Assembly (NCBI RefSeq): GCF_023701485.1
Contig: NZ_JAMQBK010000039.1
Span: 1-64,000, forward strand
Direction: 5' to 3'
DNA: 64,000 bases
Origin: Aporhodopirellula aestuarii
Lineage (GTDB): Bacteria > Planctomycetota > Planctomycetia > Pirellulales > Pirellulaceae
In this document: piece after piece, positions 7,239-33,277 of the stretch
How the letters are laid out: each line of letters starts with the position of its first letter
How positions within the stretch are numbered: position 1 is the first letter of the stretch
Translations under genes and position numbers: made by a program
Notes under the pieces: generated by a model
Seen by the model: the letters and a program-made list of their open reading frames with translations, nothing else
Database searches by the model: none
What the model was told of the DNA's origin: nothing

Positions 7239-9608
7239 ATGCTGTTGCTTCGATATTTACATGTCTCCTTATCCAATTCCCACGCTCGTTTGTGCGGATT
7301 GGCTGCCATTTGGACGGTGACGTTTGTTCTCTTGTCCCCGGGTGTTACCTCCAACGTGTTTGGCGAAGAAATCTTCGTTGAAACGGAAAGTTTTGCTGAC
7401 CATGGTGGCTGGAAACTGGACACTCAGTTCATCGAACAAATGGGGTCACCCTACTTACTCGCGCATGGGCTCGGGCAACCCGTGGACGATGCGCGAACAA
7501 CGATTTCGGTGACCACGCCGGGAGAATATCGAGTTTGGGTGCGAACACTCGATTGGGTGGCACGCTGGGCAGCCTCTCCGTCGCCGGGGCAGTTTCAAGT
7601 GTCCTTCGATGGGACGCCGCTGAAGCCAACATTTGGTACCGAATCGGCCGTGTGGCATTGGCATGACGGCGGAGTGGTTCGTCTCTCGGCCGGTGACCAC
7701 GAGGTCCGTCTCCACGATCTCACCGGATTTGATGGCCGCTGCGACTGTTTGTATCTGACCACCGACGTTGATCGCGAGACGCCGCCGCCGGCCGTAGACG
7801 ACGTGCTTTCACCGTGGCGGAGAGAACAGCTCGGGCTGCCCCGCGATCCGGTTACCGAAGGCCCTTACGATCTCGTGGTTATCGGTGGCGGATATGCCGG
7901 CATGGGGGCCGCGTTGTCGGCCGCGAGAATGGGATGTCGCGTTGCCTTGATCCAGGACCGTGGCGTTCTCGGCGGTAACGGATCAAGTGAGGTCCGCGTG
8001 TGGGCGATGGGGAACATACGACGCGGCAAATTTCCGCGGATCGGTGAGATCATCGAAGAATTCTGTGACCATGCGACGAAATCTCCGGGGACATATGAAG
8101 AGTTCGGTGACGACAAAAAAGAAGCGATCGTTCTCGCCGAAGCCAACATCGATTTGATGCTCAATCATTTTGCCTATGCGGTGGACGCGCACGATGCCAA
8201 AGCGGGCAAAGCGGAAAACGCACCCGCCCGTCACATCGATGCCGTTCGTGTCATGAACACGCATACGGGTGAAGATTTGCGAGTCACCGGAGAGATGTTC
8301 GTTGACTGTACCGGCCATGGATGGATCGGCGAATGGGCAGGAGCGGATACCGACATGACGCCTGGAGGACGAATGGGCATGAGCAACATGTGGAGTTGGG
8401 CCGAAGGGGAGTCTACAAAAACTTTCCCCGAAACTCCGTGGGCTCTTGATTTGACGATGTCTGATTTTCCATACCCGCGTGATCATCACGGACAATGGTT
8501 TTGGGAAAGCGGGTTCGACATTGATCCGATTGGCCAAGCCGAAGCGATTCGTGATTGGAATCTGCGAGCGGTCTATGGTGCGTTCAATGCGATGAAGAAC
8601 CGAGATGGCGCTGATAATCATCGCACCGCGGAACTGACTTGGGTCGCGTACATCGGCGGGCCACGCGAGAGTCGACGCATCATGGGCGATGTCGTCCTGA
8701 CGCAGGACGACGTGGTGAGCAAACGCGAGTTTCCCGACGGTTGTGTCCCGAGCACGTGGTCGATCGACCTTCACTATCCGAAAAAACAATACGCGGCGAA
8801 GTTCCCCGAGAACCCGTTTATCAGCGTTGCCGTCCATGATCGTCGAGTGGACCGCACGTACGGATACCCGGTACCGTACCGATGCTTTTACAGCCGCAAT
8901 GTTGAGAATCTGTTTACCGCCGGGCGTTGTATCAGTGTCACGCACGAGGCGCTCGGCACAGTTCGAGTCATGAAAACGTGCGGCATGATGGGCGAAGTCG
9001 TCGGTAAAGCGGCGTCGATCTGCACGCTGCACGATTGTTATCCTCGCGATGTCTATGAATCGCACTTGGACGAACTGCTGACGCTGTTGCGTCTCCCTGG
9101 CAAGGCGCGTCGGCAGACTCCAGCGAGTGAGATTGTGATTCCCGATGATGCGATGGAGTTGGCCAGTTCGATCGGTCCGATGCCGGGACGCAAGCCTGCG
9201 GAGTTGTCTGGCGTGGTGATCGACGATCGTGACGCGATTCGCACAGGCAATTGGAAAGAAGGGACAGGTCTACGCGGCTATGTTGGTTGGTCATATCGTT
9301 ACGCGAGTGAGAATTCATCGGCGTCGGCTCGCTTTGAAACCAAACTTGAGAAAGCGGGACGCTATCGACTGAAACTCTACAATCAACCTCACGCCAATCG
9401 CGGCACGACGGTGCCAGTCTCGGTGGAAGTTGCCGGAAAAGCGATTTCAACCTTGCGAGTGAACCAGAGCGTCACCCCGGAATCGGGAGCAATCGATGCA
9501 GGTGAATTTGACTTGCCGTCCGGCGAGACCGTCAGTGTTGTGTTTACGACCGAGAATGCCGGCGGTCTCGTTCACATCGACGCGGTCGCGTGGGAGTTCG
9601 TGGAATAA
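7239..9608 (+). CDS. exported FAD-dependent oxidoreductase
   Basis: 789 residues. A hydrophobic segment (about 17-35) indicates export or an N-terminal anchor. Residues about 45-175 look like a beta-sandwich, carbohydrate-binding-like part (tract HEVRLHDLTGFDGRCDCLYL). A Rossmann motif DLVVIGGGYAGMGAALSAAR (211-230) starts a large FAD-dependent oxidoreductase domain of the pfam12831 type, with GGNGSSEVRVWAMG after it and FTAGRCISVTHEALGTVR near its end. A second beta-rich part fills the last 120 residues. Such enzymes are abundant in planctomycetes beside polysaccharide-degradation genes; here the substrate is unknown and no sulfatase or glycosidase is adjacent. Confidence 0.88.
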   Translation: MLLLRYLHVSLSNSHARLCGLAAIWTVTFVLLSPGVTSNVFGEEIFVETESFADHGGWKLDTQFIEQMGSPYLLAHGLGQPVDDARTTISVTTPGEYRVWVRTLDWVARWAASPSPGQFQVSFDGTPLKPTFGTESAVWHWHDGGVVRLSAGDHEVRLHDLTGFDGRCDCLYLTTDVDRETPPPAVDDVLSPWRREQLGLPRDPVTEGPYDLVVIGGGYAGMGAALSAARMGCRVALIQDRGVLGGNGSSEVRVWAMGNIRRGKFPRIGEIIEEFCDHATKSPGTYEEFGDDKKEAIVLAEANIDLMLNHFAYAVDAHDAKAGKAENAPARHIDAVRVMNTHTGEDLRVTGEMFVDCTGHGWIGEWAGADTDMTPGGRMGMSNMWSWAEGESTKTFPETPWALDLTMSDFPYPRDHHGQWFWESGFDIDPIGQAEAIRDWNLRAVYGAFNAMKNRDGADNHRTAELTWVAYIGGPRESRRIMGDVVLTQDDVVSKREFPDGCVPSTWSIDLHYPKKQYAAKFPENPFISVAVHDRRVDRTYGYPVPYRCFYSRNVENLFTAGRCISVTHEALGTVRVMKTCGMMGEVVGKAASICTLHDCYPRDVYESHLDELLTLLRLPGKARRQTPASEIVIPDDAMELASSIGPMPGRKPAELSGVVIDDRDAIRTGNWKEGTGLRGYVGWSYRYASENSSASARFETKLEKAGRYRLKLYNQPHANRGTTVPVSVEVAGKAISTLRVNQSVTPESGAIDAGEFDLPSGETVSVVFTTENAGGLVHIDAVAWEFVE

Positions 9609-11606: not shown

Positions 11607-12290
11607 ATGCATCATCAACTACTCGCCCAACCGGCCATGTCCATTGCCAAGCTGACGCTTCAAGCGGGTGAGTCGATCACTTGCGAAGTCGGTGCGATGA
11701 TTGCGATGTCGAGCGGGTTTACCGTCGAGACGACTTCACGAAACAAAGGTGGTGGCGGAGGCCTCGCAAAAGGGCTCAAGCGTATGTTTGCCGGAGAGAA
11801 CTTTTTCCTGAATCACTTTACTGCCACGGCTCCGAACCAATCGTTATGGATCGGCCCTGGACTACTCGGTGACGTGATGCATTATCCGTTGAGCGGAGGA
11901 TCGTTGATCGTCCAAGGTTCGAGCTGGCTCGCCTCGGCGGTCGGTATCGAAATCGACGCGACGTGGCAGGGGCTCGGCAAAGCGTTGTTTAGCGGTGAGG
12001 GAATGTTCTGGGTCAAGTGCAGTGGTCGAGGCGATTTGTTCTTGAACAGTTTTGGAGCCATCTACCCGGTGGACGTTAATGGCGAGTATGTCGTTGACAC
12101 CGGGCACATCGTCGCTTTCGAAGACACGTTGAATTTTAAAATTGGAAAAGCTGGCTCAAGTTTGGTCGGCAGTATTCTCGGTGGCGAAGGTTTGGTTTGC
12201 AAATTCAGCGGCCAAGGAAAGCTTTATTGCCAAAGCCACAATCCGCCTAGTTTCGGAAAACTGCTCGGACCGAAACTGAAAGCACGGTAG
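11607..12290 (+). CDS. AIM24-family protein (second of three)
   Basis: 227 residues, clear paralogue of the genes on both sides: AMIAMSSGFTVETTS, AGENFFLNHF, SGRGDLFLNSFGAIYP, and GEGLVCKFSGQGKLYCQSH near the end. Diverged from the first copy enough that this is not a recent duplication. A Gly-rich stretch (NKGGGGGLAKGLKRMFAGEN) may form a loop. It follows the first copy by 57 bases. Confidence 0.88.
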   Translation: MHHQLLAQPAMSIAKLTLQAGESITCEVGAMIAMSSGFTVETTSRNKGGGGGLAKGLKRMFAGENFFLNHFTATAPNQSLWIGPGLLGDVMHYPLSGGSLIVQGSSWLASAVGIEIDATWQGLGKALFSGEGMFWVKCSGRGDLFLNSFGAIYPVDVNGEYVVDTGHIVAFEDTLNFKIGKAGSSLVGSILGGEGLVCKFSGQGKLYCQSHNPPSFGKLLGPKLKAR

Positions 12291-12312: not shown

Positions 12313-13464
12313 ATGATTGAAATCGCATGTCCCAGTTGTCAAAAACGCTACCGACTCGACGATAAGTTCGCGGGCAAGAAGGCGAAGTGCAAACAGTGCG
12401 GCGCCGTGCTGTTAATCAAAGCTCCCGTTGACGACGTGGCTGGTAGTCCGCCAGCTTCGCCTGCCAAGCCGGTGGCACCAGCCAAGCCCGCCCCGACGCA
12501 GGCATCGCCCGCTCCGCCATCACCGCCACGGCCTGCTGCCCCGGCTGGATCGGCCCAACGTCCTCCCACGCCGGCGCCTCGTGCCGCGTCACCTCCGGTC
12601 GCCGAGGCGATCCCGACGGTCACGGCCGAGCCGATTATCGAGGCGGTTGTCGTTGAGCCACAGGTGGTAGAGGTAGCAGAGGTGGTTGAGCCCTTTGCGG
12701 GGACGCCGGGTCCACGTTCCGGACCCGGGGCGTCACAAAACGGGGCAGCCGAAACATTGCGTGGGACCACGAGTCACATGCAGTACGAGATCAGCCAGCG
12801 TCCCGATTTTTCGATCGTCAAGATCCATTTGCCGCAAGGCGGGAAGGTCTACGCGGAACCTTCGGCGATGGTTTCCATGACGCCGTCGATGCACCTCGAA
12901 GCAGGTTTTAAAGGGGGACTCGGCAAGACGTTCGGACGTCTGCTTGGCGGTGAGAGTTTGATCATCAACACGTTCACCGCGCAAGACGGTCCCGGCGAAG
13001 TCATGTTTGCCGGAGGAGCCGCCGGGGACGTGGCCTATCATCGGCTCAACGGCAATTCGCTGTACTTGCAGCGTGGTGCCTACATGTTCAATAGTGAAGG
13101 TGTGGAAGTATCCGGGAAGTGGCAAGGGGCGAAAGGATTCTTTAGCGGCGAGGGACTCGTCTTGCTCAAAGCAACCGGCACCGGAGACATCTTTTTCAAC
13201 TCGTACGGTGCGATCATCCCGATCGATGTCACCGAAGGGTTCATGGTCGACACGGGATACATTGTGGCGTTTGAGGAATCGTTGCAGTACCGCGTGACGG
13301 TGCTGCCTGGTTTGCGAACGGCCGGGAAAATCAAGTCGTTCTTCTTCGGCGGCGAGGGGCTCGTGTGCCAGTTCGCAGGCAGCGGACGCGTTTGGATCCA
13401 GACCCGCCAGGTCAAGTCGTTCCTCGCTTGGGTGAACGCGTTCCGACCGACGAAAAGTAATTAG
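12313..13464 (+). CDS. AIM24-family protein with N-terminal zinc ribbon (third of three)
   Basis: 383 residues. Residues 1-36 form an MJ0042-type zinc finger with CxxC pairs at Cys6/Cys9 and Cys26/Cys29. A long Pro/Ala-rich linker (about 45-150) leads to a C-terminal AIM24 domain of about 230 residues with AMVSMTPSMHLEAG, GGESLIINTF and GEGLVCQFAGSGRVWIQTR. The zinc ribbon and linker are absent from the other two copies. The stop codon is directly followed by the ATG of the next gene. Function unknown; the fusion suggests a tethered or adaptor role. Confidence 0.88.
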   Translation: MIEIACPSCQKRYRLDDKFAGKKAKCKQCGAVLLIKAPVDDVAGSPPASPAKPVAPAKPAPTQASPAPPSPPRPAAPAGSAQRPPTPAPRAASPPVAEAIPTVTAEPIIEAVVVEPQVVEVAEVVEPFAGTPGPRSGPGASQNGAAETLRGTTSHMQYEISQRPDFSIVKIHLPQGGKVYAEPSAMVSMTPSMHLEAGFKGGLGKTFGRLLGGESLIINTFTAQDGPGEVMFAGGAAGDVAYHRLNGNSLYLQRGAYMFNSEGVEVSGKWQGAKGFFSGEGLVLLKATGTGDIFFNSYGAIIPIDVTEGFMVDTGYIVAFEESLQYRVTVLPGLRTAGKIKSFFFGGEGLVCQFAGSGRVWIQTRQVKSFLAWVNAFRPTKSN

Positions 13465-16945: not shown

Positions 16946-18322
16946 ATGGAGTCAAACGGCATGGATGCCACCGCCAATCGCACCCACTCGGTCTGCGCCC
17001 AGCAATCCGCGAGTCGGGTATTCGGCCCTTGGTCGTCACCTCGCAAGCACTTCTCGGTGTATGGGGTTTTGTTCAGTGCTGTCCTGTTGGGCGTCACTTT
17101 GACGGCCGCAAGTTCAGACGCGGCGAACTTCCGCACACGAAACTTTTTAATCGAAGCCCCCACGCCCCAATTGGCGAAATCAGTGGGCGATGCCGCCGAG
17201 CGATATCGTGACGAGCTGGCAACCTACTGGACCGGCTCCACTCTGCCACCGTGGCCGACACCCTGTCCGGTTCGCGTGGTCGCGGGACCCAATCTCGCTG
17301 CCCAAGGCGTGACGACTTACAACCCCGCCCCCGTGCGTGATTTCCAAATGGAGGTCATCGGCACACCCGAGCGAATTCTCGACAGCGTGCTGCCACACGA
17401 AGTCACCCACACGGTGCTGGCGACCTATTTCGGCCGCCCTCTGCCTCGCTGGGCGGACGAAGGAATTTGCACAACGGTTGAACACGTTTCCGAACGAACC
17501 AAACACGAAGCCAAACTGCGTGAGTTTCTTTCCTCACGGCGTGGCATCGCGATGAACCGATTGTTCTTGTTGACCGAGTATCCCGCCGACGTGTTGCCGA
17601 TGTACGCCCAAGGCTACTCCGTCTGCCGATTCTTGATCGCTCAACAAGGACCGAGAACGTTTATTAGTTTTTTGAAAGACTACATGCAGCGACCGTCGTG
17701 GACTGCCAACGTTCAGAAACACTACGGATACGAATCGCTCGCTGAACTGCAAGAGTTTTGGCTCTCATGGGTCGAAGCGGGCAGTGGCCCGGTTGAGCAA
17801 TTCGTCAAAGCGGACACTCGTCGACCATCGACGCCAGACGCCTCCATCGCATCGCTCGACGCAGCCAACGCATCGGCGTCGGCACGACCGCAGCGCAACA
17901 TCGCCCCAGCAACCGCGTTTGCCGCCGCGACGCGTCCGCAGCCGACTGCCGGCAATGATCGGACTCGCAGTCTCGTTGCTGCGAACGATCGTGGTCGGGT
18001 GAGCGAAGCGGATGCCGGTAACGGTTGGTACCATCGTCGGGCCGAAGGATTGGCGACGTCGAGTCGTCCCGAGGCAGCGGGAATCGAAATGTTGCCACCT
18101 GGAAATCGGGTCGCCGTTTCCAACAACAGCACCGCCGTCGAATCTTTAGCCGCCGGCCGAACCACACCGACCTGGGCACCGCCATCTGTGTTGGCCAGTG
18201 GTCGCTATTCCGCAGCGACGCCTCAGCCTGAAACGTCATTATCGACGCCGATTAGTCCGGCTGTTCTCGACTCACGCGTCGGTGACCGAGGTCGCGGACC
18301 CAGTTCGGGAACGTGGCGTTAA
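16946..18322 (+). CDS. exported gluzincin-like putative metalloprotease
   Basis: 458 residues. A hydrophobic stretch at about 39-60 (VLFSAVLLGVTLTAASSDAA) gives a signal peptide with a long n-region; the true start may be the Met at residue 6. HEVTH (151-155) plus Glu172 in RWADEG fit the HExxH...E arrangement of MA-clan gluzincins. The C-terminal 190 residues are low-complexity, Ala/Ser/Thr/Pro-rich, with no recognisable domain. A periplasmic peptidase is plausible; no substrate is suggested by context. The 273-base region before it (16673-16945) is a divergent promoter region without other features. Confidence 0.78.
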   Translation: MESNGMDATANRTHSVCAQQSASRVFGPWSSPRKHFSVYGVLFSAVLLGVTLTAASSDAANFRTRNFLIEAPTPQLAKSVGDAAERYRDELATYWTGSTLPPWPTPCPVRVVAGPNLAAQGVTTYNPAPVRDFQMEVIGTPERILDSVLPHEVTHTVLATYFGRPLPRWADEGICTTVEHVSERTKHEAKLREFLSSRRGIAMNRLFLLTEYPADVLPMYAQGYSVCRFLIAQQGPRTFISFLKDYMQRPSWTANVQKHYGYESLAELQEFWLSWVEAGSGPVEQFVKADTRRPSTPDASIASLDAANASASARPQRNIAPATAFAAATRPQPTAGNDRTRSLVAANDRGRVSEADAGNGWYHRRAEGLATSSRPEAAGIEMLPPGNRVAVSNNSTAVESLAAGRTTPTWAPPSVLASGRYSAATPQPETSLSTPISPAVLDSRVGDRGRGPSSGTWR

Positions 18323-18404: not shown

Positions 18405-20591
18405 GTGACGACGACCGTTGCCAGCGAACCGTTTCTCTTCACACCGGGAATGTCAGAGACGTCCTCCGGTGCAGCTGGCGGTGCGCCGTTTCGCGGTGGA
18501 AACCCGGCGTCCACCGAAGGGCTTGTGGATCAAGCACGCCAGGAAATTTCTCAGATCGTTCGCGAAGTTGCCGCCGCGCAGCGGAGTGATGGCGGACGCG
18601 AAAAATACATGCGTTTCCTCGCCGATCGTGTTCTTCGAGCGATGGCGGCGCACGGTGTCGTGGTCTGGACCGCGATCGATGACTCGTCGAACACCGTTAC
18701 AACGAACGACGCCGGTAAACCGTTGTACTACCGCGCCGAACATCGCATCGGCACGATCACGGATCATCAATTCGATCCCACTGCCGAAGCGGTACACGAT
18801 TGTTTGTTGCTCGAAGTCGCGGGACAAAATTCGCCCGTCGTGGTGCCGCCAACTCCCGGGGCTTCGGACGCCGATGTTCCAGCCAACCCAACCAAATATC
18901 CGGCAGCGATCGTTCCTATTCTGGTGGACCCGGCAGCTTCGCTCCCCAATTGTTTGCTGGAGGTTTTTCTCGAACCCGGCGGCAGTCCCGCCAGCCAGAG
19001 GGGCTCGCTGCGTTTTCTGGCGCAGATGGGAGAACTCGCCGGTGAGTTTTTGCGAGCCGATCAACTCCGTACGATGACGCGACGATTGCGATCGCTCGAA
19101 GAATGCACGCAACTGATCGACCAGATGGGCAAACTCACGTCCACGCGAGCGATCCAGGCGGCGTGGGTCGATGCGGTCGCGCGGGTGACGAACTGCCCAC
19201 GAGTCGCGTTATGCCGCGTCGATCGTGGACGTCCGCAAATCGTTGCGGTCAGTCATGTTGACCGGATTGACCAACACAGTGATGCGGCGGCGGAGATTCG
19301 CCGTGTCGCTGAGGTGCCGCTGCGCCGCAACAAACGATTCGCGTTTGCCTCGATCGAAACCAATCGTCGCTCGGGAGAGGACCGTCGCCAATCCGAGTCG
19401 GCATCGAGCGGATCGGCAACCAACAAACCAGCGGTGATGCCGCGATGGTTGGTCGCTCATCATTGCGAATCAAGATGGCGGCTGGTCTTGTTCGAACCCA
19501 TCGACCAATCTCGCCAACAGGACGAGCCGAACCCCGAGGTCAGCGAAGTCCTTGAAAGGTTACTCATTGGCGGGAATCAAGCTTGGCTGGCTGCGAACCG
19601 GATCGAAGCGATTCCGGGCGGACGATGGTGGACCCGATTGTCTGCAACCGAAGAGGATGAGTCGGCGTTGGCGCTAGGATCCGAAAATACGGAACGCAAA
19701 CGTTCGGTATATTCAGCCGCTCGCCGTCGCTCCGGTTTAATCGCCGCGATCGCACTGACCACCACGCTGCTGCTCTGTTTGCCGATCCCGTCAATGGTTC
19801 CAGCGACCGGATTGATCCGCCCGTTGGAACTCGACACGTATCACACGGTGGCCGACGCGACGGTGGAAACGCTGCATGTGTATCACGGACAAACCGTACA
19901 AAGCGGTGACATGCTGGCAACTCTCGTTTCCCGTGAACTCACCGAACGCAAAACAACATTGCTGGGACGTCGCGCCGTTTTGATGCAGCGGCGTGATCAA
20001 TTTAATCATGCCTTGGTCGCATCGAGCAGCCCAACGGGTGGAGCCGCCGAATTGCAGAGCGATCACGAGATCAGCGAAGAGATCGACGCGATCGACCGTC
20101 AGCTCGAACTCATCGCCGAATGCGAAGCTGATCTCGTGCTTCGTGCCCGTCGTGACGGGCGTGTGGATGCATGGCGACTGCAAGAACGACTGGCGGGCCG
20201 GCCGCTCAAACGAGGTGACGTGGTGCTCAGCGTGATTGCCGAAGACACGACTTGGGTGGTGGACGCCACGATTCCTCAACGTCGTGTTGCGCGAGTTGAT
20301 CATGCTCTCGCCGAAGAAAACCTGACCGCTGAAGTCTCGACCCGATGGGCACCGGGTGAGTCGCAGAAGGCTACCCCGCATCGCTTTGGTCCTGTCGTTC
20401 CTGATCCCGTTGATGGGACCCCCGGCGTGATTTTGCGAATGACGTTGTCGGCGGCGCCTCAACTCGGCGACCAGCCGCTGACCGAAACGCCCGCCCGAGT
20501 TGCAATCCACTGCGGTCGAACATCGCTCGGATGGTTTCTCATGGAAGACATCGTCAGTTGGTGCCAAACCCGAGTCGGAATCTACCTATGA
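18405..20591 (+). CDS. HlyD-like membrane-fusion protein with large cytoplasmic N-terminal half
   Basis: 728 residues, GTG start. Residues 1 to about 440 are soluble with a GAF-like pattern (AAHGVVVWTAIDDSSN..., then VDAVARVTNCPRVALCRVDRG). One membrane helix at about 443-466 (GLIAAIALTTTLLLCLPIPS) is followed by a lipoyl/barrel-sandwich domain (VADATVETLHVYHGQTVQSGDMLATL), a helical hairpin and a final beta part, as in HlyD/MacA adaptors. The topology implies a cytoplasmic sensor or docking half and a periplasmic adaptor half. Its stop overlaps the next ATG (ATGA). First gene of the three-gene module; the GAF assignment is tentative. Confidence 0.8.
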   Translation: MTTTVASEPFLFTPGMSETSSGAAGGAPFRGGNPASTEGLVDQARQEISQIVREVAAAQRSDGGREKYMRFLADRVLRAMAAHGVVVWTAIDDSSNTVTTNDAGKPLYYRAEHRIGTITDHQFDPTAEAVHDCLLLEVAGQNSPVVVPPTPGASDADVPANPTKYPAAIVPILVDPAASLPNCLLEVFLEPGGSPASQRGSLRFLAQMGELAGEFLRADQLRTMTRRLRSLEECTQLIDQMGKLTSTRAIQAAWVDAVARVTNCPRVALCRVDRGRPQIVAVSHVDRIDQHSDAAAEIRRVAEVPLRRNKRFAFASIETNRRSGEDRRQSESASSGSATNKPAVMPRWLVAHHCESRWRLVLFEPIDQSRQQDEPNPEVSEVLERLLIGGNQAWLAANRIEAIPGGRWWTRLSATEEDESALALGSENTERKRSVYSAARRRSGLIAAIALTTTLLLCLPIPSMVPATGLIRPLELDTYHTVADATVETLHVYHGQTVQSGDMLATLVSRELTERKTTLLGRRAVLMQRRDQFNHALVASSSPTGGAAELQSDHEISEEIDAIDRQLELIAECEADLVLRARRDGRVDAWRLQERLAGRPLKRGDVVLSVIAEDTTWVVDATIPQRRVARVDHALAEENLTAEVSTRWAPGESQKATPHRFGPVVPDPVDGTPGVILRMTLSAAPQLGDQPLTETPARVAIHCGRTSLGWFLMEDIVSWCQTRVGIYL

Positions 20592-21601
20592 AGTCACCCA
20601 TCTTGTTTGCCGTCTTGGCCTTTGCGATTCCGTTGTCATCTCTCCACGGCAGCGACGATTCGGTTGTCGAGGTGCGAGACGTCGTCGTCGAATTCGCTGG
20701 AAAAATCGATGTCCCGGCGAGACAAAGTGGTCCGGTTGCGGAATTGAAGGCTCGGCAAAATCAGTGGGTGACTCAAGGTCAAACGATCGCGAAACTGGAT
20801 GACACCGCGTTGGTGATCCGTCGCCGGGCGGCATCGTTGCGATACGATTCCGCCCGTTTGGTGCTGCAAGATCGCGTCGAAATTCAGTACGCCGAAACAG
20901 CTCTCGCTGAAGCCCAAGCGGAACTGGATGACGGTCAAGCGGCGAGCGATCGAGTCAGTGGCGCGGTCGCACGCAATCAATTGCGGCGGATGAAGCTCGC
21001 CACCGAACGCGCCGAACTCGAACTCGCGCGAGCCGAAAAACAGTGGCGTCAAGCTGAGATCGACATGCAACTGCGTGCGGCCGATCTCGCCATGATCGAT
21101 CACGAACTGCAGCAACTCGAGTGCACGAGCCCGATTGATGGAATCGTCCTCGACGTGTATCGCGAACTTGGCGAATGGATTCATGCGGGTGACCCCTTAG
21201 TCACGATCGCCGACGCCGGTGTCCTGCATCTGCATGCCCTCGTTGATGCAGATCAGCTCGACCCGGCACGCTGTGTCGGTTTGTCGGTAACGGTCCATTG
21301 GTCCAACGAATCCAGGAAGCCGCATGTCTCCTCCTCGGCTTCGACTGCGCAGGGGACAGGCTCGTTACGCGGTCAGGTGATCTCGGTCGACCCGACTCGG
21401 TTACCCGGCAATCGCTTCCGTTTGCATGCCGAAGTCGAAAATCGGCGGCACATTGCCGGAACCGTCGACGCGCAGAAACCCGGCATGGTTGGCGATGGAT
21501 GGCAATTGTCGCCAGGGATGGAAGTGATGATGAAAATCCACTGCTCGGATGCTGAGATCGCGTGGAGGAAGAATCGCTCCGTATCGGGTTCGCTGAGATG
21601 A
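20588..21601 (+). CDS. HlyD-family periplasmic adaptor
   Basis: 337 residues from the ATG at 20588, which overlaps the upstream stop by 4 bases and begins a clean signal peptide (MKSPILFAVLAFAIPLSSLHG). A lipoyl half-motif (DVPARQSGPVAELKARQNQWVTQGQTIAKL) is followed by a long coiled-coil hairpin (about 90-190), the second half-motif (LECTSPIDGIVLDVYRELGEWIHAGDPLV) and a beta-barrel part, the standard membrane-fusion protein order. It would be periplasmic. The next gene starts inside its stop (ATGA at 21598). Confidence 0.87.
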   Translation: MKSPILFAVLAFAIPLSSLHGSDDSVVEVRDVVVEFAGKIDVPARQSGPVAELKARQNQWVTQGQTIAKLDDTALVIRRRAASLRYDSARLVLQDRVEIQYAETALAEAQAELDDGQAASDRVSGAVARNQLRRMKLATERAELELARAEKQWRQAEIDMQLRAADLAMIDHELQQLECTSPIDGIVLDVYRELGEWIHAGDPLVTIADAGVLHLHALVDADQLDPARCVGLSVTVHWSNESRKPHVSSSASTAQGTGSLRGQVISVDPTRLPGNRFRLHAEVENRRHIAGTVDAQKPGMVGDGWQLSPGMEVMMKIHCSDAEIAWRKNRSVSGSLR

Positions 21602-23697
21602 GCCGGTTGCCGCTCCGCCGCGACCTGCAAATCTCGACGCTGTCGGGAAACCGCGATTGTGTGATCGTCGACGACATTGGCGGTCGCTTCGCCAGAATCA
21701 AACGAGCGGTTTGGGATCAACTGTGCGGTTGGTCGAGCGGTCAAGACACGGTATCGACTGAGCCGGATGCCTCCTTATGGCAGCAGGCCGTCGCCGCGGG
21801 ATGGACGGAGAACCGCTGCGGCCGCGTTGCTGGTCCCTCCTGGTCGTTGCTTTCAATACGTATTCCGATCGGGTCCATTGATCCGATCGCACGCCGATTG
21901 GTGCGTTGGAGTGGTTTCGTTTATGCACCGCGAGCGTTGCTGTTCTGGATCATTGCCGCCATCGCCGGATTGATCATGATCGTCGTGCGGTGGGAGAATT
22001 GGAGCGGATCCATTCCGTCGCTTTCGGCTTATCTGCAATCGCTACATCCGGTGAGTGTTGCGTTGTTATTCGTGATCACGAAATCAGTGCATGAACTGGG
22101 GCACGCGACCGCATGTCGACGCCTGGGGTCTCGGTGCGGCGTAGCGGGGATTTGGTTCCTGTGTTTGATGCCGTGTCCCTATGTCGATGTTACCGAAGTT
22201 TGGCGACAACCAAACGCGATCCGGCGCGCGGCGGTGATGGCGTCCGGGATGATTGCCGAAGGTGTGTTGTGTGTGCTTGCGATCTGGGCATGGATTTTGT
22301 CGGATTCGCCGAATGTTCAATTGGCGGCGATGAATATCATCTTGGTGTGTGGCGTCAGCACGATTTTATTCAACGCTAACCCACTCATGCGGTACGACGG
22401 ATATTTCATCTTGAGTGATCTCGTCGACAGCACCAATTTGCGAAGCGAAGCACGGCGAGCGTGGCAACGATTTTTGACCGAGCCGCTTATGCGATGGCTC
22501 CACCTCGGGCATCGCCGTTGGGCGCTTCTGATTTACCATGTCGCAGCGGCTGTCTATCGGTTGACCCTGGTCGTCGCGATCGCCGCGATGTTGCTCGGTA
22601 TCGCCGATCGATGGGGCGCGTGGCGGTTAGTGGCCACGGTGTTAGTTGCGATGGCGGGCCGAGCCTTGTATCGAAAAATGAATGCGGGATGGGAAATGTG
22701 GAAGGGAAGCGGATTCTGGTCGGCGGTTTCGAGCATTCGGCGTCGCGGGTTGGTGTTGCTCGCGGTCGCCGCAGTGGTGGCTCTGATTGGTGTGCCGATG
22801 CCGCGATATCGACATGTCGAAGGTCAGATACGCAGCAAGGATGCCCATAGCGTTTACTTGCCCGCCGAAGGCACGATTGACGAGGTGAACGTGCGAGTAG
22901 GGGATCAAGTTTTGCAGGGGCAATGTTTAGCTCGGCTTAGCGATCCTGAGCTATCACTCGAAATGGCAGCAACGCACGGGCAAGCACGCGTGCTTGAGCA
23001 TCGCTCCCGAGCAGCCCGGCTCGCGTCATTGCAGTCCAGCCGCAATATGAATGCAATGTCGAGCCGAAATCGCCGCCAATCGGGAGTTCCAGGTCATGCA
23101 CCGGAGTCACATTGGGATGTGCTCGATGCGGCGACTCGAGCGGTTACCGAAAAAGTCGCCGAATTGCAGTCTCGGCAATCAAAACTGGACGTTCTGTCTC
23201 CGGCCGACGGAGTGATTTTGCCGTCCGGCGACGTTCCAGTGGCTCAGCACGACGTGCATCAAAATCCGATTCATCTTTCGCCCGGTGTAGGAGAGCCAGC
23301 GGGTGATCGCTACTCATGGTGCCGCGTTGCGTCCTCGAATCGTCTGCAGCTATTTATGCCGATGAACGCGGGTGACCAACACGATGTTCAGATCGGTTGC
23401 CCGGTGCGATTTCGTATTCCCGGTTATGATTCCACTGTCTTGAGGTCGGAAGTGTCGGGTGTTTCTCCGCTGCATGCCCCGGATACGTTAGAGTCTCAGC
23501 CGACGTCGCGACCCGAAGGTGACAACCCCGATTTGCGTGTCTACCAAGCCGTGTGTGATGTCCCTGAACAGGTTGATATTCCGATCGACACACTGCCCCG
23601 TTGGGAGGGAGTCCGCTGTGAAGTGGTGGTGCATTTGCCACCGCGACCACTGTGGAAAGATCTTTGGCAGATGGTCCAAGACATCATGGGTATTTAG
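21598..23697 (+). CDS. M50-type membrane metalloprotease fused to HlyD-like C-terminus
   Basis: 699 residues from the ATG at 21598 (a GTG at 21562 would add 12). Residues 1-75 (IVDDIGGRFARIKRAVWDQL) resemble a small PqqD-like module. The membrane part carries HELGH at 165-169 and NPLMRYDGY at 261-269, the HExxH and NPxxxxDG motifs of site-2 proteases, with several helices around. From about residue 421 a lipoyl-like motif (AEGTIDEVNVRVGDQVLQGQ) begins a HlyD-like periplasmic half. Similar fusions occur beside peptide-export systems. No ABC transporter or precursor-peptide gene is adjacent. Confidence 0.87.
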   Translation: MSRLPLRRDLQISTLSGNRDCVIVDDIGGRFARIKRAVWDQLCGWSSGQDTVSTEPDASLWQQAVAAGWTENRCGRVAGPSWSLLSIRIPIGSIDPIARRLVRWSGFVYAPRALLFWIIAAIAGLIMIVVRWENWSGSIPSLSAYLQSLHPVSVALLFVITKSVHELGHATACRRLGSRCGVAGIWFLCLMPCPYVDVTEVWRQPNAIRRAAVMASGMIAEGVLCVLAIWAWILSDSPNVQLAAMNIILVCGVSTILFNANPLMRYDGYFILSDLVDSTNLRSEARRAWQRFLTEPLMRWLHLGHRRWALLIYHVAAAVYRLTLVVAIAAMLLGIADRWGAWRLVATVLVAMAGRALYRKMNAGWEMWKGSGFWSAVSSIRRRGLVLLAVAAVVALIGVPMPRYRHVEGQIRSKDAHSVYLPAEGTIDEVNVRVGDQVLQGQCLARLSDPELSLEMAATHGQARVLEHRSRAARLASLQSSRNMNAMSSRNRRQSGVPGHAPESHWDVLDAATRAVTEKVAELQSRQSKLDVLSPADGVILPSGDVPVAQHDVHQNPIHLSPGVGEPAGDRYSWCRVASSNRLQLFMPMNAGDQHDVQIGCPVRFRIPGYDSTVLRSEVSGVSPLHAPDTLESQPTSRPEGDNPDLRVYQAVCDVPEQVDIPIDTLPRWEGVRCEVVVHLPPRPLWKDLWQMVQDIMGI

Positions 23698-23734: not shown

Positions 23735-24364
23735 TTACGCTGACTTGGTTTCCTGGTACGTCCACAGGCAGCGGATGCGTTCGATTTTGCGTGAAATCGT
23801 TCGTTCGACGCAGTTCATCATTTCCGAGATTTCTTTGTTGGAATAGCCTTCGAATTTGAGCCAAGCGATACGGCGAAGGTTTGGGTCGGGCAGTCTGTCC
23901 ATAAGTTCTTGAATCGTTTCGGCGGCTCCCATTGCCATTTCGGGCGACGGTTCCTGCCCGAGGACTTGTTCGAGGCCGGGCCTCGTTGTGTCATCGGAAG
24001 AGATGAAGATCGATTCGCCACGCACCCGTCCGCTGCCGCGTTTGGCGGCGATTTGTCGACGATACTGCGCCGAGATTTTTCTAGCGGTGATCACCACTAG
24101 CAGTTTCCACAGATCTGAAGGGTCGTCCAACTGTGTCACGCGATCCTCTTTGATTGCGCGAAAGAGACTATTAAATGAGCTGATCGCGATGTCTTCTTCG
24201 TCGAACTCTCGCATCCGTGTTCCACGCAGTTTGCTGCGGGTCATCGCAATCAGCCGCGAGAAATAGGTATTCCAGATTTCCTGTTGCGTGCGTGAATCGC
24301 CCTTTTTCAGGTTGCCGATCCACGTTGAAAGTTCATCGTCCAATTCCATCTCGCACCTGATCAC
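23735..24364 (-). CDS. ECF-type RNA polymerase sigma factor (planctomycete type)
   Basis: 209 residues, Sigma70_ECF-like (pfam07638). Region 2 is TQQEIWNTYFSRLIAMTRSKL and following DEEDIAISSFNSLFRAI, region 4 is RIAWLKFEGYSNKEISEMMN and VERTISRKIERIRCLW. A start at 24349 (MELDDEL) is equally likely. It is divergent from a cNMP-binding Ser/Thr kinase gene across a 300-base region. In planctomycetes these sigma factors are often encoded next to Ser/Thr kinases and lack a classical anti-sigma factor, so phosphorylation control by the neighbour is a reasonable inference. Confidence 0.9.
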   Translation of the reverse strand: MIRCEMELDDELSTWIGNLKKGDSRTQQEIWNTYFSRLIAMTRSKLRGTRMREFDEEDIAISSFNSLFRAIKEDRVTQLDDPSDLWKLLVVITARKISAQYRRQIAAKRGSGRVRGESIFISSDDTTRPGLEQVLGQEPSPEMAMGAAETIQELMDRLPDPNLRRIAWLKFEGYSNKEISEMMNCVERTISRKIERIRCLWTYQETKSA

Positions 24365-24664
24365 ACGTTGTGTTGACCCGTCCTGATTGACGAGTCGCCT
24401 CTGGTATCTTGTTCACTGACGCGGCGGTACTCGCCCCATGGTCTGCCAGGTTTGTCATCGTTCTGCACCAGCGTTTTGCTGGGAATTCTCGAAAACGCGA
24501 CGGTTACTAATCGGGATCGCTATTCGAGTCGTCGGCCGGTTGGGGGCAGCCTCGGGGGACCCGTATGATACAGTATCGTGCGAGAGAGGGCGGGGGGAGT
24601 ATGATTGATTCGCCGACGCTGGGCAGCGGCAACGACGTCGCCGTGTTATTAAAAGAGTTAAATC
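24365..24664. promoter_or_regulatory. divergent promoter region, sigma factor / kinase
   Basis: 300 bases between two divergent genes. On the plus strand TATGAT at 24564-24569 resembles a -10 box, without a good -35. From 24601 a short reading frame precedes and overlaps the kinase start (separate entry). TTGAC-like hexamers occur at 24372-24392, but none pairs convincingly with a -10. Confidence 0.3.
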
Positions 24665-24675
24665 GTGGCCTATGA
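24601..24675 (+). CDS. possible 24-residue leader ORF overlapping the kinase start
   Basis: ATG at 24601 preceded by a purine-rich GGGGGGAG, reading MIDSPTLGSGNDVAVLLKEL and four more residues before TGA at 24673. It overlaps the kinase GTG (24665) in another frame by 11 bases, the geometry of translational coupling. It may be chance; there is no homology evidence. Confidence 0.25.
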   Translation: MIDSPTLGSGNDVAVLLKELNRGL

Positions 24676-26215
24676 TAAACAATTGACTCCGGACGAGCTC
24701 GCGACGATCGATCAATTGTGCGATGAGTTCGAAATCGCTTGGCTGCTATCAGGCGGACGCGAATCGCTGCAGCAATGGGTCGAAAAAGCGGCCGAACCGC
24801 TGCGTACCAAATTGTTTGCCGAGTTGTTGGCGATGGATGCCCAATTGCGGACGCGGCAGGACGAATCGTCGCTGATGTATTCACTTTCGCGCATATGTCC
24901 GTTCGATGTGGTCATGCCCGAGGAGGAATCGTCATTTTTCGGCGACGGAAGGTTGGTGTCGATTCGGACCGCGCGTCACGCTTTGGTCGACTGTCCGACC
25001 TTTGCGGGGCTGACTCGCACAGCAGTCGAACGACTTGAGCAGTCATTCACCGAGAGCAAGTTTGTTGCCGGCGACGCGATGATGAGCCAAGGGGCACCGA
25101 CGCAGGGGCTGTTCATCGTTCTGTCCGGACATCTTGAGATACGAAAAACCTCCGAGACGGGAGAGACCTCAGTGATCGATCGTTGTGGTCCAGGGAGCGT
25201 AGTCGGCGAGATGTCGCTTTTAAGCGGACACACCTGCACCGCGACGGTACTCGCAACCGAAAACGTGCGAACGTTGACCCTTTCGGCAGACGCGTTCGCG
25301 GACTTGCGGGAGGAATTCCCCGAAATCGAAATCGCGCTGAGCCAATTGGTGAGCGATCGACTCGGCCGACGCGAGATCGATGCACTTTGTGGACGCAGCT
25401 TGGGCGGATACCGTTTGCTGCGATGCATCGGTCGAGGAGGCATGGGGGTTATCTATGAGAGTCATCCCGACGGTGAACCGGAACGTCGCGTGGCTTTGAA
25501 AATGCTTCGTCATCGCTTCGTGCACGATCCCGCCGTCGTGGACCTGTTTCACCGAGAGTCGAGTGTGCTTCAGAGTCTGCGTCATCGCAACGTGATCGAA
25601 GTTTACGATTCGTTCGTCGACGTGCGAACGCGGTTTTTGGTTTTGGAATTATTCGACGGTACCGACTTGCGTTGTGTGCTTCGCCATCGGGGTTCGCTGG
25701 ACGAATCCTCCGTGCGACGATTGGTCGGGCAGATCGCCTGCGGTTTACACCACGCCCACTCGAAGAATGTGGTGCATTTGGACGTCAAACCCGAGAACGT
25801 CTTACTGGACCGCCAAGGTCGGGTGGCGCTCGCCGATTTCGGTTTGTGTCAGTCGTTGGATCAAGATCAATCGGATCTCTACATCAAGGGGACACCCGCT
25901 TACATGGCACCCGAACAATTGTGCGGCGACGCGGTCACTCCGAGTTCGGATTGGTACGCGTTGGGTTGCATGATGGCTGAGTTAGCAACCGGACGACGAT
26001 TGTTTCAAGATCGTGACCCCGTCAATTTACTCGATCTCAAACGGGCGACCGTTCCGTCGTCTGAATGGCCCAAGCTGAATGTGTCCGACGAACTACAGGG
26101 CGTGCTCACGGGGCTACTCCACCCCGATCCGAAGTGCCGCCGATGGGATGCCGATCAAATGTGTTCCTGGGCCGATGACACTCCCGAATTAGCCGCCGAC
26201 ATCACGACCGGTTGA
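24665..26215 (+). CDS. serine/threonine kinase with cyclic-nucleotide-binding-like domain
   Basis: 516 residues, GTG start, AGAG 9 bases upstream. Residues about 115-235 form a cNMP-binding/CRP-like beta roll (GDAMMSQGAPTQGLFIVLSG ... GSVVGEMSLLSGHTCTATV). A Hanks kinase follows: GRGGMG glycine loop, Lys279 in VALKML, catalytic loop HLDVKPEN (371-378) with Leu where most kinases have Arg, and DFG at 391-393, then GTPAYMAPEQ. All catalytic residues are present, so it should be active but of the non-RD type. No membrane segment, so a cytoplasmic kinase possibly gated by a nucleotide. Divergent from an ECF sigma factor, a likely partner. Confidence 0.92.
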   Translation: MAYDKQLTPDELATIDQLCDEFEIAWLLSGGRESLQQWVEKAAEPLRTKLFAELLAMDAQLRTRQDESSLMYSLSRICPFDVVMPEEESSFFGDGRLVSIRTARHALVDCPTFAGLTRTAVERLEQSFTESKFVAGDAMMSQGAPTQGLFIVLSGHLEIRKTSETGETSVIDRCGPGSVVGEMSLLSGHTCTATVLATENVRTLTLSADAFADLREEFPEIEIALSQLVSDRLGRREIDALCGRSLGGYRLLRCIGRGGMGVIYESHPDGEPERRVALKMLRHRFVHDPAVVDLFHRESSVLQSLRHRNVIEVYDSFVDVRTRFLVLELFDGTDLRCVLRHRGSLDESSVRRLVGQIACGLHHAHSKNVVHLDVKPENVLLDRQGRVALADFGLCQSLDQDQSDLYIKGTPAYMAPEQLCGDAVTPSSDWYALGCMMAELATGRRLFQDRDPVNLLDLKRATVPSSEWPKLNVSDELQGVLTGLLHPDPKCRRWDADQMCSWADDTPELAADITTG

Positions 26216-26223
26216 CCAACAAC

Positions 26224-26961
26224 ATGAATTCTCCATTCCTGACGGCTGAATGGCGTCGACTCGTGATGCTGAATTTCGAGATCGATCCCGTCGAGCTTAG
26301 CGAATTCGTTCCAGCGGGAACCGAGATCGATTTTTGGGAAGGCAAAACGTTTGTCAGCTTGGTCGCGTTCCAGTTTTTGCATACGAAGGTACTGGGCGTT
26401 CCGATTCCGTTTCATCGCAATTTCGACGAAGTCAACTTGCGGTTTTATGTGCGGCATCGAGCCAGCGGGGAGTGGCGACGCGGCGTAGTGTTTGTGCGTG
26501 AAGTCGTGCCACGGTTCGCGATCGCGGCGGTAGCGAGATGGATCTACAAAGAGAACTATGTCTCTCTGCCCATGCGATCGACGCTCGCAGCTCCTTCGCC
26601 TCAAGCCAACGGGCGAGCCAGTTACAGTTGGCGGCACGCCGGTCAATGGCTAACGATCGGGGGCGAGTACCACGGCGACCCTTTTTATCCTGAACCGGGC
26701 TCCCAAGAAGAATTCATTACCGAACACTACTGGGGCTACTCGTCCAAGCGAAACCGCGGCACGATCGAATACCAAGTCGAACACCCTCAGTGGCGAGTTT
26801 GGGAGGCGGTCAGCACTCAACTCGATGGCGACTTCGCCGGATTTTATGGAAAGCAATTTGCCAACTCACTCGCCTCCTCCCCATCCTCCACCTTCGTCGC
26901 CGAAGGCTCACCCGTGACCGTAAGACAGGGCCAAGCTATCTTGGGAACGGCTGCCAACTGA
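26224..26961 (+). CDS. DUF2071 (YqjF-like) protein
   Basis: 245 residues from the ATG at 26224, 8 bases after the kinase stop (a TTG at 26212 overlaps that stop). The pattern FLTAEWRRLVMLNFEIDP near the N-terminus, FWEGKTFVSLVAFQFLHTKV, FDEVNLRFYVRH and ITEHYWGYSSKRNRGTIEYQVEHPQW are diagnostic of DUF2071/YqjF. Function unknown; acetoacetate-decarboxylase-like fold is known for the wider group. May be co-transcribed with the kinase gene. Confidence 0.88.
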   Translation: MNSPFLTAEWRRLVMLNFEIDPVELSEFVPAGTEIDFWEGKTFVSLVAFQFLHTKVLGVPIPFHRNFDEVNLRFYVRHRASGEWRRGVVFVREVVPRFAIAAVARWIYKENYVSLPMRSTLAAPSPQANGRASYSWRHAGQWLTIGGEYHGDPFYPEPGSQEEFITEHYWGYSSKRNRGTIEYQVEHPQWRVWEAVSTQLDGDFAGFYGKQFANSLASSPSSTFVAEGSPVTVRQGQAILGTAAN

Positions 26962-27019: not shown

Positions 27020-27718
27020 ATGTCCGATAGCTCGCATCTTGAAAACCGTGAGAGTGCCAGCGAGGAAAGTACGTTTATGAGTGAGTCATCCCATCCGGCC
27101 GGAAAACCGTCGGGCAAAGATTCCGACCAGTCGCCGGCAATGCCTGCGGCGGACGAGCGGATGCCGCTGACGAAGGTGGATTCGCCTCATCCGGCGGTGT
27201 GGGATGTCGATGAATTATTAAAACAGTGTGACTTTCGAACGCAGGCTCGCGGTGGTCCCGGTGGCCAGCATCGCAATCGCACAGCGTCGGGGGTGTTTGT
27301 CACCTTTCGGCCCGCCGAGATCACTGCCGAGGCGACCGAAGAGCGGAATCAGCATCGCAATCGAGAGGTTGCGATTCGCCGGTTGCGGTACGTGCTCGCG
27401 GTGAGTCTGCGGACGCCGTCTCCGTTGGCTGACGCGTTGGGGGCCAGCGACCGGGGCTCAGCCGATTCGCAGGAGCAGGCGGTTCGCGACCGTTTTCGTG
27501 GTTCGCCGCTGAAAATGGCGGAGGGAAATGACGCCAAACCGGCGGTGCTCGCACTTTTGCTCAACGATTTGCACGCCGCAGGCGGCCAGCCGAGCTTGGT
27601 GGCGCCGTTTTGGAAGGTTTCCACCAGCCGAATTGCCGCATGTTTACGGTCGCATCACCTCGCCATGACGCTGGTGAATCGCATTCGCCAGCACCACGGC
27701 CGAGGACCGCTGAAGTAG
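27020..27718 (+). CDS. peptide-chain-release-factor-like protein with GGQ motif
   Basis: 232 residues. Residues about 62-135 contain the RF-1 catalytic domain with GGPGGQHRNRTASGV (GGQ at 81-83), which hydrolyses peptidyl-tRNA in release factors. There is no codon-recognition domain, so this is not RF1 or RF2. Related small GGQ proteins (ArfB/YaeJ group, and an RF-like planctomycete group) rescue stalled ribosomes; ArfB's basic C-terminal tail is not evident here. The N-terminal 60 residues are polar and probably disordered. A second start at 27077 is possible. Confidence 0.82.
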   Translation: MSDSSHLENRESASEESTFMSESSHPAGKPSGKDSDQSPAMPAADERMPLTKVDSPHPAVWDVDELLKQCDFRTQARGGPGGQHRNRTASGVFVTFRPAEITAEATEERNQHRNREVAIRRLRYVLAVSLRTPSPLADALGASDRGSADSQEQAVRDRFRGSPLKMAEGNDAKPAVLALLLNDLHAAGGQPSLVAPFWKVSTSRIAACLRSHHLAMTLVNRIRQHHGRGPLK

Positions 27719-32371: not shown

Positions 32372-33277
32372 CTAGACGTCGGTGACGCGGCGGGGGCGTT
32401 GGCGGGTGACGGCGGGTTTGACGCGGAGGTTTTCGTGCGGCGCGTCGACACGCTGGATGTTCGCTTCCTGCGGTCGATGGGGAACTCCGGCCGCGGCATC
32501 CAGGTCGCCGAGGTATTCCTCTCGCACTTTCGGATGCCGTTTGACTTCGTCCGGTGTGCCGTCAATCAGCACTTGGCCTTGGTAGATCACGTAGCAACGA
32601 TCGACCGTCGTCAAAATCTCGCGGGCGGCGTGGTCGGTGATGAGCACGCTGATCCCGGAATCACGTAATTGCGTGATCACGCTTTGGATCGATTGCACGG
32701 TCACGGGGTCGATACCCGCGAACGGCTCGTCGAGCATCACGATTTGTGGGTTGGAAACGAGGCACCTCGCGATTTCCAGACGCCGTCGTTCACCACCGCT
32801 AAGACCCGCGGCAGGGCTCTTGCGGATATGGGTGATGTTGAATTCTTCGAGGAGTTCGTCGGTGCGTTCTTTCCGCCGCTTGCGATCGAATCCGAGCAAT
32901 TCGAGCAGTGCTGAGATGTTTTGCTCGACCGAGAGTTTCTTGAAGACGCTGGGCTCCTGAGGCAGGTAACCCATGTTCCCGTCGCGGGCTCGGCGGAACA
33001 TTGGCCAATCGGTGACATCCTGGCCGCTCAAGTAGACGCGTCCCCGGTCCGGTTGCACCAAGCCGCAAATCATGCGGAAACTGGTCGATTTACCCGCCCC
33101 GTTGGGCCCGAGCAATCCCACAATTTCCGCGGCGCCGACGCTGAGATTGACACCGTCGACCACTCGCCTGCGGCCGTAGGTTTTTTGCAGACCGACCGCC
33201 TCGAGAATCGGCTCTCGTTCGGCAAACTCTTCTCGGCCGTTGCGGGGCATGGTGGCGGAATCGAAATCGTCAGACAT
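32372..33277 (-). CDS. lptB: LPS-export ABC transporter ATP-binding protein
   Basis: 301 residues. Walker A GPNGAGKST (57-65), Q-loop region YLPQEPSVFKKLSVEQN, signature LSGGERRRLEIARC, Walker B IVMLDEPFAGIDPVTV, and the late H-loop ITDHAAREIL, which with the YLPQEPSVF and DHAARE forms is typical of LptB. LptB with LptF/LptG pulls lipopolysaccharide from the inner membrane; no lptFG or lptA/C lies in this window. About 35 extra residues after the normal C-terminus are hydrophilic and of no known domain. It lies downstream of the signal peptidase gene on the same strand (84-base gap). Confidence 0.92.
   Translation of the reverse strand: MSDDFDSATMPRNGREEFAEREPILEAVGLQKTYGRRRVVDGVNLSVGAAEIVGLLGPNGAGKSTSFRMICGLVQPDRGRVYLSGQDVTDWPMFRRARDGNMGYLPQEPSVFKKLSVEQNISALLELLGFDRKRRKERTDELLEEFNITHIRKSPAAGLSGGERRRLEIARCLVSNPQIVMLDEPFAGIDPVTVQSIQSVITQLRDSGISVLITDHAAREILTTVDRCYVIYQGQVLIDGTPDEVKRHPKVREEYLGDLDAAAGVPHRPQEANIQRVDAPHENLRVKPAVTRQRPRRVTDV

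Follow-up and report, generated by a model that had tools for sequence, protein, structure and literature searches.

A 2015 paper by Kamneva, Poudel and Ward (PMC4452313) describes planctomycete loci in which a gene for a secondary SecA_DEAD protein (SecA2) stands with genes for GAF-HlyD, HlyD and M50-HlyD proteins. SecA is proposed there to be the ATPase and the M50 protein a possible pore, the broader role is stated as unknown, and some secondary SecA genes are reported to have their associated genes elsewhere in the genome. Searches for later work on these loci found one passage that cites the paper, and it adds nothing on function. Here we describe a trio of co-directional genes coding for a GAF-HlyD protein (P0001), a separate HlyD adaptor (P0002) and an M50 protease fused to an HlyD half (P0003). 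The trio lies in a stretch of 64,000 nucleotides from Aporhodopirellula aestuarii (assembly GCF_023701485.1, contig NZ_JAMQBK010000039.1, positions 1 to 64,000), which is referred to as the window. An initial annotation had considered three adaptor halves for one protease unusual. By the 2015 description, this is instead the make-up of the family, to which a secondary SecA ATPase also belongs, and not an ABC (ATP-binding cassette) exporter.

A SecA-less paralog of a known module

The trio has the three architectures of the 2015 loci (M50-HlyD, GAF-HlyD and a separate HlyD) and, like them, has no ABC transporter. Those loci have SecA_DEAD alongside, whereas no SecA adjoins the window trio: SecA_DEAD gave no match on the window's contig and none in 13 regions that hold orthologs of the trio. 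Since the trio has every feature of the 2015 loci except SecA_DEAD in the locus, we class it as a SecA-less variant, or paralog, of the SecA2/GAF-HlyD/HlyD/M50-HlyD module. It belongs to a subfamily of its own. A quick tree of 89 M50 proteins placed it in a window clade of 19 rows (16 of them different), which had a value of 100 in the Shimodaira–Hasegawa-like approximate likelihood ratio test (SH-aLRT) and contained no SecA-linked member.

SecA2 does adjoin the trio in many relatives, as 10 of 20 further regions, picked for a nearby SecA2 or a nearby LEPR-XLL protein (LEPR; see below), have SecA2, GAF-HlyD, HlyD and M50 on one strand in this order. The order GAF-HlyD, HlyD, M50 was found in 33 of 100 related loci, none of the 33 with SecA; the idea that this order never accompanies SecA is ruled out by the 10 targeted regions, where SecA2 comes directly in front of it.

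The A. aestuarii genome has seven M50-HlyD loci. SecA, HlyD, GAF-HlyD, M50 and OEP (the TolC-type channel) stand together at two of them (C117 and C57), an OEP gene lies beside GAF-HlyD, HlyD and M50 at two others (C8 and C95), C144 has GAF-HlyD and M50, and both C148 and the window have the trio alone. Four SecA_DEAD genes score over the cut-off, one in a frame of 1271 codons, which is probably the housekeeping SecA, and three that are shorter (C98, C117 and C57). The trio at C148 and the secondary SecA at C98 lie apart. Eight regions fetched from the family's other genera have a secondary SecA gene directly 5′ of such a trio. The module with SecA was also seen in Pseudomonadota, namely in Falsiroseomonas stagni (L138) and in a Litoricola metagenome-assembled genome (MAG; L096); in the former, a LEPR-type open reading frame (ORF) of 3127 or more codons was seen as well.

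Association of the family with LEPR-XLL giants

At C117 and C8, both sister loci of the window trio in A. aestuarii, giant ORFs with frames of 3045 and 2748 codons lie divergently opposite the exporter genes. These match the LEPR-XLL model (NF012209) at 18.2 and 20.1 bits, respectively, with a cut-off of 17. LEPR-XLL giants are candidate substrates of the family; none lies beside the window trio. Among the matches listed for 60 genomes, 17 of 150 LEPR matches lay within 15 kb of an M50-HlyD gene, compared with 1.8 expected (P = 5e-12); one of the M50 positions came from a separate search, and the count without it is 16 of 150. Under the same measure, linkage of LEPR to 60 housekeeping SecA positions and to 59 Peptidase_MA positions was 0/150 in each case. 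Outside these first 60 genomes, 7 of 136 were linked versus ∼0.85 expected (P = 3e-5).

The two families also occur together. Across 343 planctomycete genomes, M50-HlyD was found in 143 and LEPR (E 0.02) in 73, and LEPR was found in none of 14 control genomes. Both were present in 68 genomes, LEPR only in 5, M50 only in 75 and neither in 195 (P = 2e-25). In the same order, the counts were 68/5/65/205 when ten genomes with weak M50 matches were counted as lacking M50, and 44/5/27/193 outside the window's class (P = 4e-26). Counted by family outside that class they were 15/1/11/39 (P = 4e-7), and within one family (f45) 4/2/1/22 (P = 0.003). All these counts are swayed by shared ancestry and rest on the matches listed, the family-level test being the fairest.

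The LEPR-type N-termini listed have no strong hydrophobic stretch, the highest 15-residue mean being 1.67, and open LEPR frames reach 13,664 codons among the matches listed. The term LEPR-XLL does not occur in the text of PMC4452313. The passages of the only two papers found to use it do not connect it with M50 or HlyD, and searches turned up no published link of LEPR-XLL to the SecA2 module. The association of LEPR-XLL with M50-HlyD loci is new, the parts and the module being already in print. LEPR-XLL or unlabelled giant ORFs were also observed beside SecA2 or M50 loci of other planctomycetes (L169, L171, L172 and L175); the open LEPR frame at L171 (G346:C73) has 8904 codons.

Conservation of the trio and its surroundings

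Some M50-HlyD relative was present in 59 of the 60 genomes searched, A. aestuarii included. Window-type copies, defined by more than 240 bits over residues 6-626 or more of P0003, were found in 10 of the 12 other genomes of the genus, in 3 of 24 from the family's other genera and in none of the remaining 23. Gene order and strand of the trio are kept in all 13 ortholog regions; an order confined to this strain, which by the initial annotation would have refuted its reading, is thereby excluded. The adaptor parts of all three proteins share 30-76% identity among orthologs. Neither SecA2 nor LEPR was found within 15 kb of any of the 14 window-type copies among the matches listed, some of the contigs being short, and neither the 13 ortholog regions nor the clade's 5 named or MAG loci had a gene called as OEP. 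A search across the clade for a conserved small ORF of at least 45 aa, which shorter precursors would escape, returned only ORFs overlapping known genes, in line with the earlier remark that no precursor is visible.

No HlyB-type ABC exporter was found beside the trio by Pfam searches of the flanking genes or by a motif scan of ORFs. ORFs with both Walker A and LSGG motifs occurred in 4 of 80 related loci, in none of 20 regions fetched first and in 1 of 20 fetched later; an ABC exporter is not conserved with the trio. One such ORF (ABC ATPase-like) lies on the minus strand of the window at 32372-33277, ∼8.7 kb downstream of the trio, and a similar one lies ∼9 kb downstream of the trio in Rhodopirellula rubra (L076). 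With the protease motifs intact and no ABC exporter adjacent or conserved in relatives, the description of the trio as an envelope module without an encoded ABC exporter holds. The trio proteins scored 13.5, 31.6 and 24.8 bits against the type I adaptor model TIGR01843 (cut-off 208.65) and 15.6, 29.2 and 28.6 bits against the NHLM bacteriocin adaptor model TIGR03794 (cut-off 156.2). The best NCBIfam match of P0003 is the daptide protease NF041824, at 108.4 bits versus a cut-off of 300, and it scores 22.8 bits, again below cut-off, against the YydH/LiaK (epipeptide) protease model; these daptide and epipeptide M50 proteases are the protease models that P0003 matches, whereas no conserved precursor ORF of at least 45 aa accompanies the trio. 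By these scores the trio appears to lie outside type I secretion, the NHLM adaptors and the daptide proteases.

Two neighbouring genes were considered as further members and judged bystanders. A Peptidase_MA-like gene (16946-18322) lies 5′ of the trio in 10 of the 13 ortholog regions and away from it in the others (G018, G023 and G025); we regard it as a bystander because it is present in 59 of 60 genomes, including the trio-less G006 and G008, and is sometimes away from the trio. An RF-1-domain gene (27020-27718) is found 3′ of the trio in 11 of the 13 regions, immediately after the M50 gene in 10 of them; it is absent there in L075, and the contig of L064 ends before its position. This gene, too, is present in G006 and G008. 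In the window, the interval that separates the trio from the RF-1-domain gene (23735-26961) holds an ECF (extracytoplasmic function) sigma factor gene on the minus strand, a gene for a cyclic nucleotide (cNMP)-binding Ser/Thr kinase and a DUF2071 gene. The same arrangement was seen in G003, and the ECF gene also in G012.

Domains and motifs of the three proteins

The genes overlap twice by ATGA, as had been read from the sequence (Table 1). Alignment with the nearest ortholog locus (L063) begins at residue 1 for P0001, P0002 and P0003, which supports the start sites of all three genes.

Table 1. Coordinates of the trio and its features in the window
Feature	Position	Strand	Content or basis
Gene 1, P0001, 728 aa, GTG start	18405-20591	+	Tandem GAF, transmembrane (TM) helix, HlyD adaptor
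Tandem GAF, P0001 residues 35-402	18507-19610	+	AlphaFold2 model, fold matches
TM helix, P0001 residues 431-458	19695-19778	+	Model helix; hydropathy peak 443-461
HlyD/MacA-like part, P0001 residues 460-707	19782-20525	+	Pfam HlyD_3; MacA fold match
ATGA overlap, gene 1 stop/gene 2 start	20588-20591	+	Sequence
Gene 2, P0002, 337 aa	20588-21601	+	Probable signal peptide and HlyD adaptor; Pfam, hydropathy
ATGA overlap, gene 2 stop/gene 3 start	21598-21601	+	Sequence
Gene 3, P0003, 699 aa	21598-23697	+	Probable PqqD-like N-terminus, M50 protease, HlyD half
Probable PqqD-like domain, P0003 ∼residues 9-72	21622-21813	+	Family Pfam matches; strands then helices in model
HELGH zinc motif, P0003 165-169	22090-22104	+	Sequence; H, E, H invariant
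NPLMRYDG motif, P0003 261-268	22378-22401	+	Sequence; N, P, D, G invariant
MacA-like HlyD half, P0003 residues 400-684	22795-23649	+	Fold match

The AlphaFold2 model of P0001 (predicted local distance difference test, pLDDT, 81.4) has two GAF folds, a TM helix and a MacA-like adaptor. A fold search with this model matched the tandem-GAF protein PDE2A (3ibj_B; Z 16.1, root-mean-square deviation (rmsd) 7.0, 288 residues aligned), a single GAF domain (4g3v_A; Z 15.9, rmsd 2.6, 146 aligned) and MacA (9qgy_G; Z 16.7, rmsd 5.8, 231 aligned). The earlier label 'GAF-like' is thus borne out by the model and by relatives, 28 of the 44 sequences in the P0001 family alignment matching Pfam GAF, though the Pfam search gave no GAF match on P0001 itself. 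The GAF pair would be cytoplasmic and the adaptor periplasmic. HlyD was matched above the Pfam cut-off on P0001 and P0002 (HlyD_3). The hydropathy of P0002 peaks at residues 1-19, and P0002 is a probable secreted HlyD with a signal peptide. Sequence searches of the PDB matched only adaptors and biotinyl/lipoyl domains.

Both motifs first noted in P0003, HELGH and NPxxxxDG, are intact, and residues H165, E166, H169, N261, P262, D267 and G268 do not vary in a 13-row alignment of P0003 with 12 orthologs or in a family alignment of 70 sequences. Pfam matched Peptidase_M50 above the cut-off and HlyD_D23 below it. The AlphaFold2 model (pLDDT 85.5) has a site-2 protease (S2P) core and a MacA-like half. 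The core was matched to RseP (7w6y; Z 10.3, rmsd 3.9, 132 aligned) and MjS2P (3b4r_A; Z 9.0, rmsd 3.4, 135 aligned); a Z near 10 is modest for helical folds and may reflect a common helical arrangement, but the motifs agree with S2P. With both motifs in a predicted membrane protein whose modelled fold is that of S2P, P0003 would count as an M50 site-2 protease. The lipoyl-like half noted earlier takes a MacA-like fold in the model (9qgy_G; Z 16.8, rmsd 6.6, 264 aligned), the Pfam HlyD match being sub-threshold. P0003 is thus like RseP, SpoIVFB and MjS2P in fold and zinc motifs but, unlike them, is fused to an HlyD half and probably begins with a PqqD-like domain. In fold, P0001 and P0003 have adaptor parts that resemble MacA-type adaptors; unlike these, the trio has no adjacent MacB or other ABC partner, and two of its adaptors are fused to other domains.

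The N-terminal ∼90 residues of P0003 are probably PqqD-like, a feature absent from the initial annotation. PF05402 (PqqD-like) was matched by 14 of 44 family M50 proteins, the best at 1e-7, and not by P0003 itself. The matches listed in its fold search mostly span residues 382-690, barely cover the N-terminus and include no PqqD chain.

Other genes in the window

A 679-aa protein encoded on the minus strand (33362-35401) has three separate Peptidase_S26 (signal peptidase) stretches; usual signal peptidases are shorter. An adjacent pair of AIM24-domain genes lies at 11607-12290 and 12313-13464, the second with a zinc-ribbon match. The gene at 7239-9608 codes for a fusion of a FAD-dependent oxidoreductase with a Golvesin C-terminal domain.

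Discussion

We put at roughly 0.55 the probability that the family to which the window trio belongs as a SecA-less paralog exports LEPR-XLL giants by a TolC-type system that SecA2 drives and in which the M50 protease trims the leader. In such an exporter, a giant substrate with LEPR-XLL at its N-terminus would be taken up by the SecA2 motor in the cytoplasm and by the membrane protein M50-HlyD. The protease would bind the LEPR-XLL leader by its PqqD-like domain and cleave it at the M50 site, in or at the membrane. The three different adaptors would form a mixed ring in which the substrate crosses the periplasm to a TolC-type channel (OEP), while the GAF pair may gate or regulate export from the cytoplasm. 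Heteromeric adaptor pairs such as TriA/TriB exist, and a mixed hexamer with two of each type would suit three adaptor types. Because no SecA2, channel or substrate gene adjoins it, the window copy would either rely on such genes at other sites of the genome or act on another substrate. At a little under even odds, SecA2 together with three unlike adaptors, one of them with a leader-binding intramembrane protease, might constitute a secretion type of its own for LEPR-XLL giants across both membranes, the window copy being a specialized branch that shares motor and channel in trans.

Several observations weigh against this exporter. Most of the matches listed are unlinked (133 of 150 LEPR and 135 of 151 M50), linked loci inside one genus are not independent, LEPR lies within 15 kb at just 2 of the 7 M50 loci of A. 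aestuarii, and a motif search of 80 named or MAG loci showed an LEPR-type ORF in 4 (a fifth, L146, was a false match). LEPR (E 0.02) is missing from 75 of 143 M50 genomes, and M50 from 5 of 73 LEPR genomes. With most LEPR unlinked and none of the 14 window-type copies near SecA2 or LEPR among the matches listed, a LEPR role of the window copy would follow from its family only. The TolC tip pattern, scored as R-x3-L-x6-S/T, is not enriched in P0002-like adaptors (3 of 63, versus 6.4 in shuffles). It was found in 4 of 13 orthologs of P0003 (shuffled fraction 0.24) and 13 of 70 family members (0.18), and for P0001 in 11 of 13 orthologs (0.34) and 14 of 44 family members (0.18), the sole match in P0001 sitting at the TM helix and not in the hairpin. 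With more matches in shuffles than in P0002-like adaptors and the P0001 match misplaced, the motif was dropped as support for docking.

LEPR-XLL and M50-HlyD may merely share lineages or genome styles, with LEPR proteins leaving the cell by another route. Both do cluster by family, most LEPR matches are unlinked, and within family f54 no significant link was found (1/1/2/10, P = 0.4), a further point against the exporter. We nevertheless consider this explanation improbable, as the association persists when counted by family and inside f45, physical linkage is seen in separate lineages, and type I HlyD (TIGR01843) is almost absent at E 1e-40 (4 of 343 planctomycete genomes).

The window subfamily could also have left export altogether, its GAF domains sensing a small molecule, its M50 site cutting a membrane protein in regulated intramembrane proteolysis and its adaptors acting as a periplasmic sensor scaffold. 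This would agree with the absence of SecA2 and LEPR near its copies among the matches listed, the lack of a called OEP in the clade and the invariant catalytic residues. An ECF sigma gene adjoins the trio in the window as well as in two of the 13 ortholog regions, but the remaining 11 were not found to have it, and the retention of all three adaptor parts is a better fit for a conduit; we therefore hold such a sensor to be unlikely, if the most credible of these alternatives. Very improbable, in our estimate, is a module for a RiPP (ribosomally synthesized and post-translationally modified peptide) or bacteriocin, in which a small precursor would attach to the PqqD-like domain, be cut at the M50 site and leave through the adaptors. 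The PqqD-like domain in relatives and the daptide and YydH/LiaK models matched by P0003 point this way, but those scores are far under the cut-offs, and neither a conserved ORF of at least 45 aa beyond known genes nor a conserved ABC exporter was found.

We know of no export route that has been shown for the giant LEPR products of planctomycetes. If the SecA2-driven exporter is correct, these giants would gain an ABC-free route with a named signal motif, and the orphan locus of 2015 would gain a substrate. The window copy shows that the module has, in addition, a branch that lacks a motor gene of its own.

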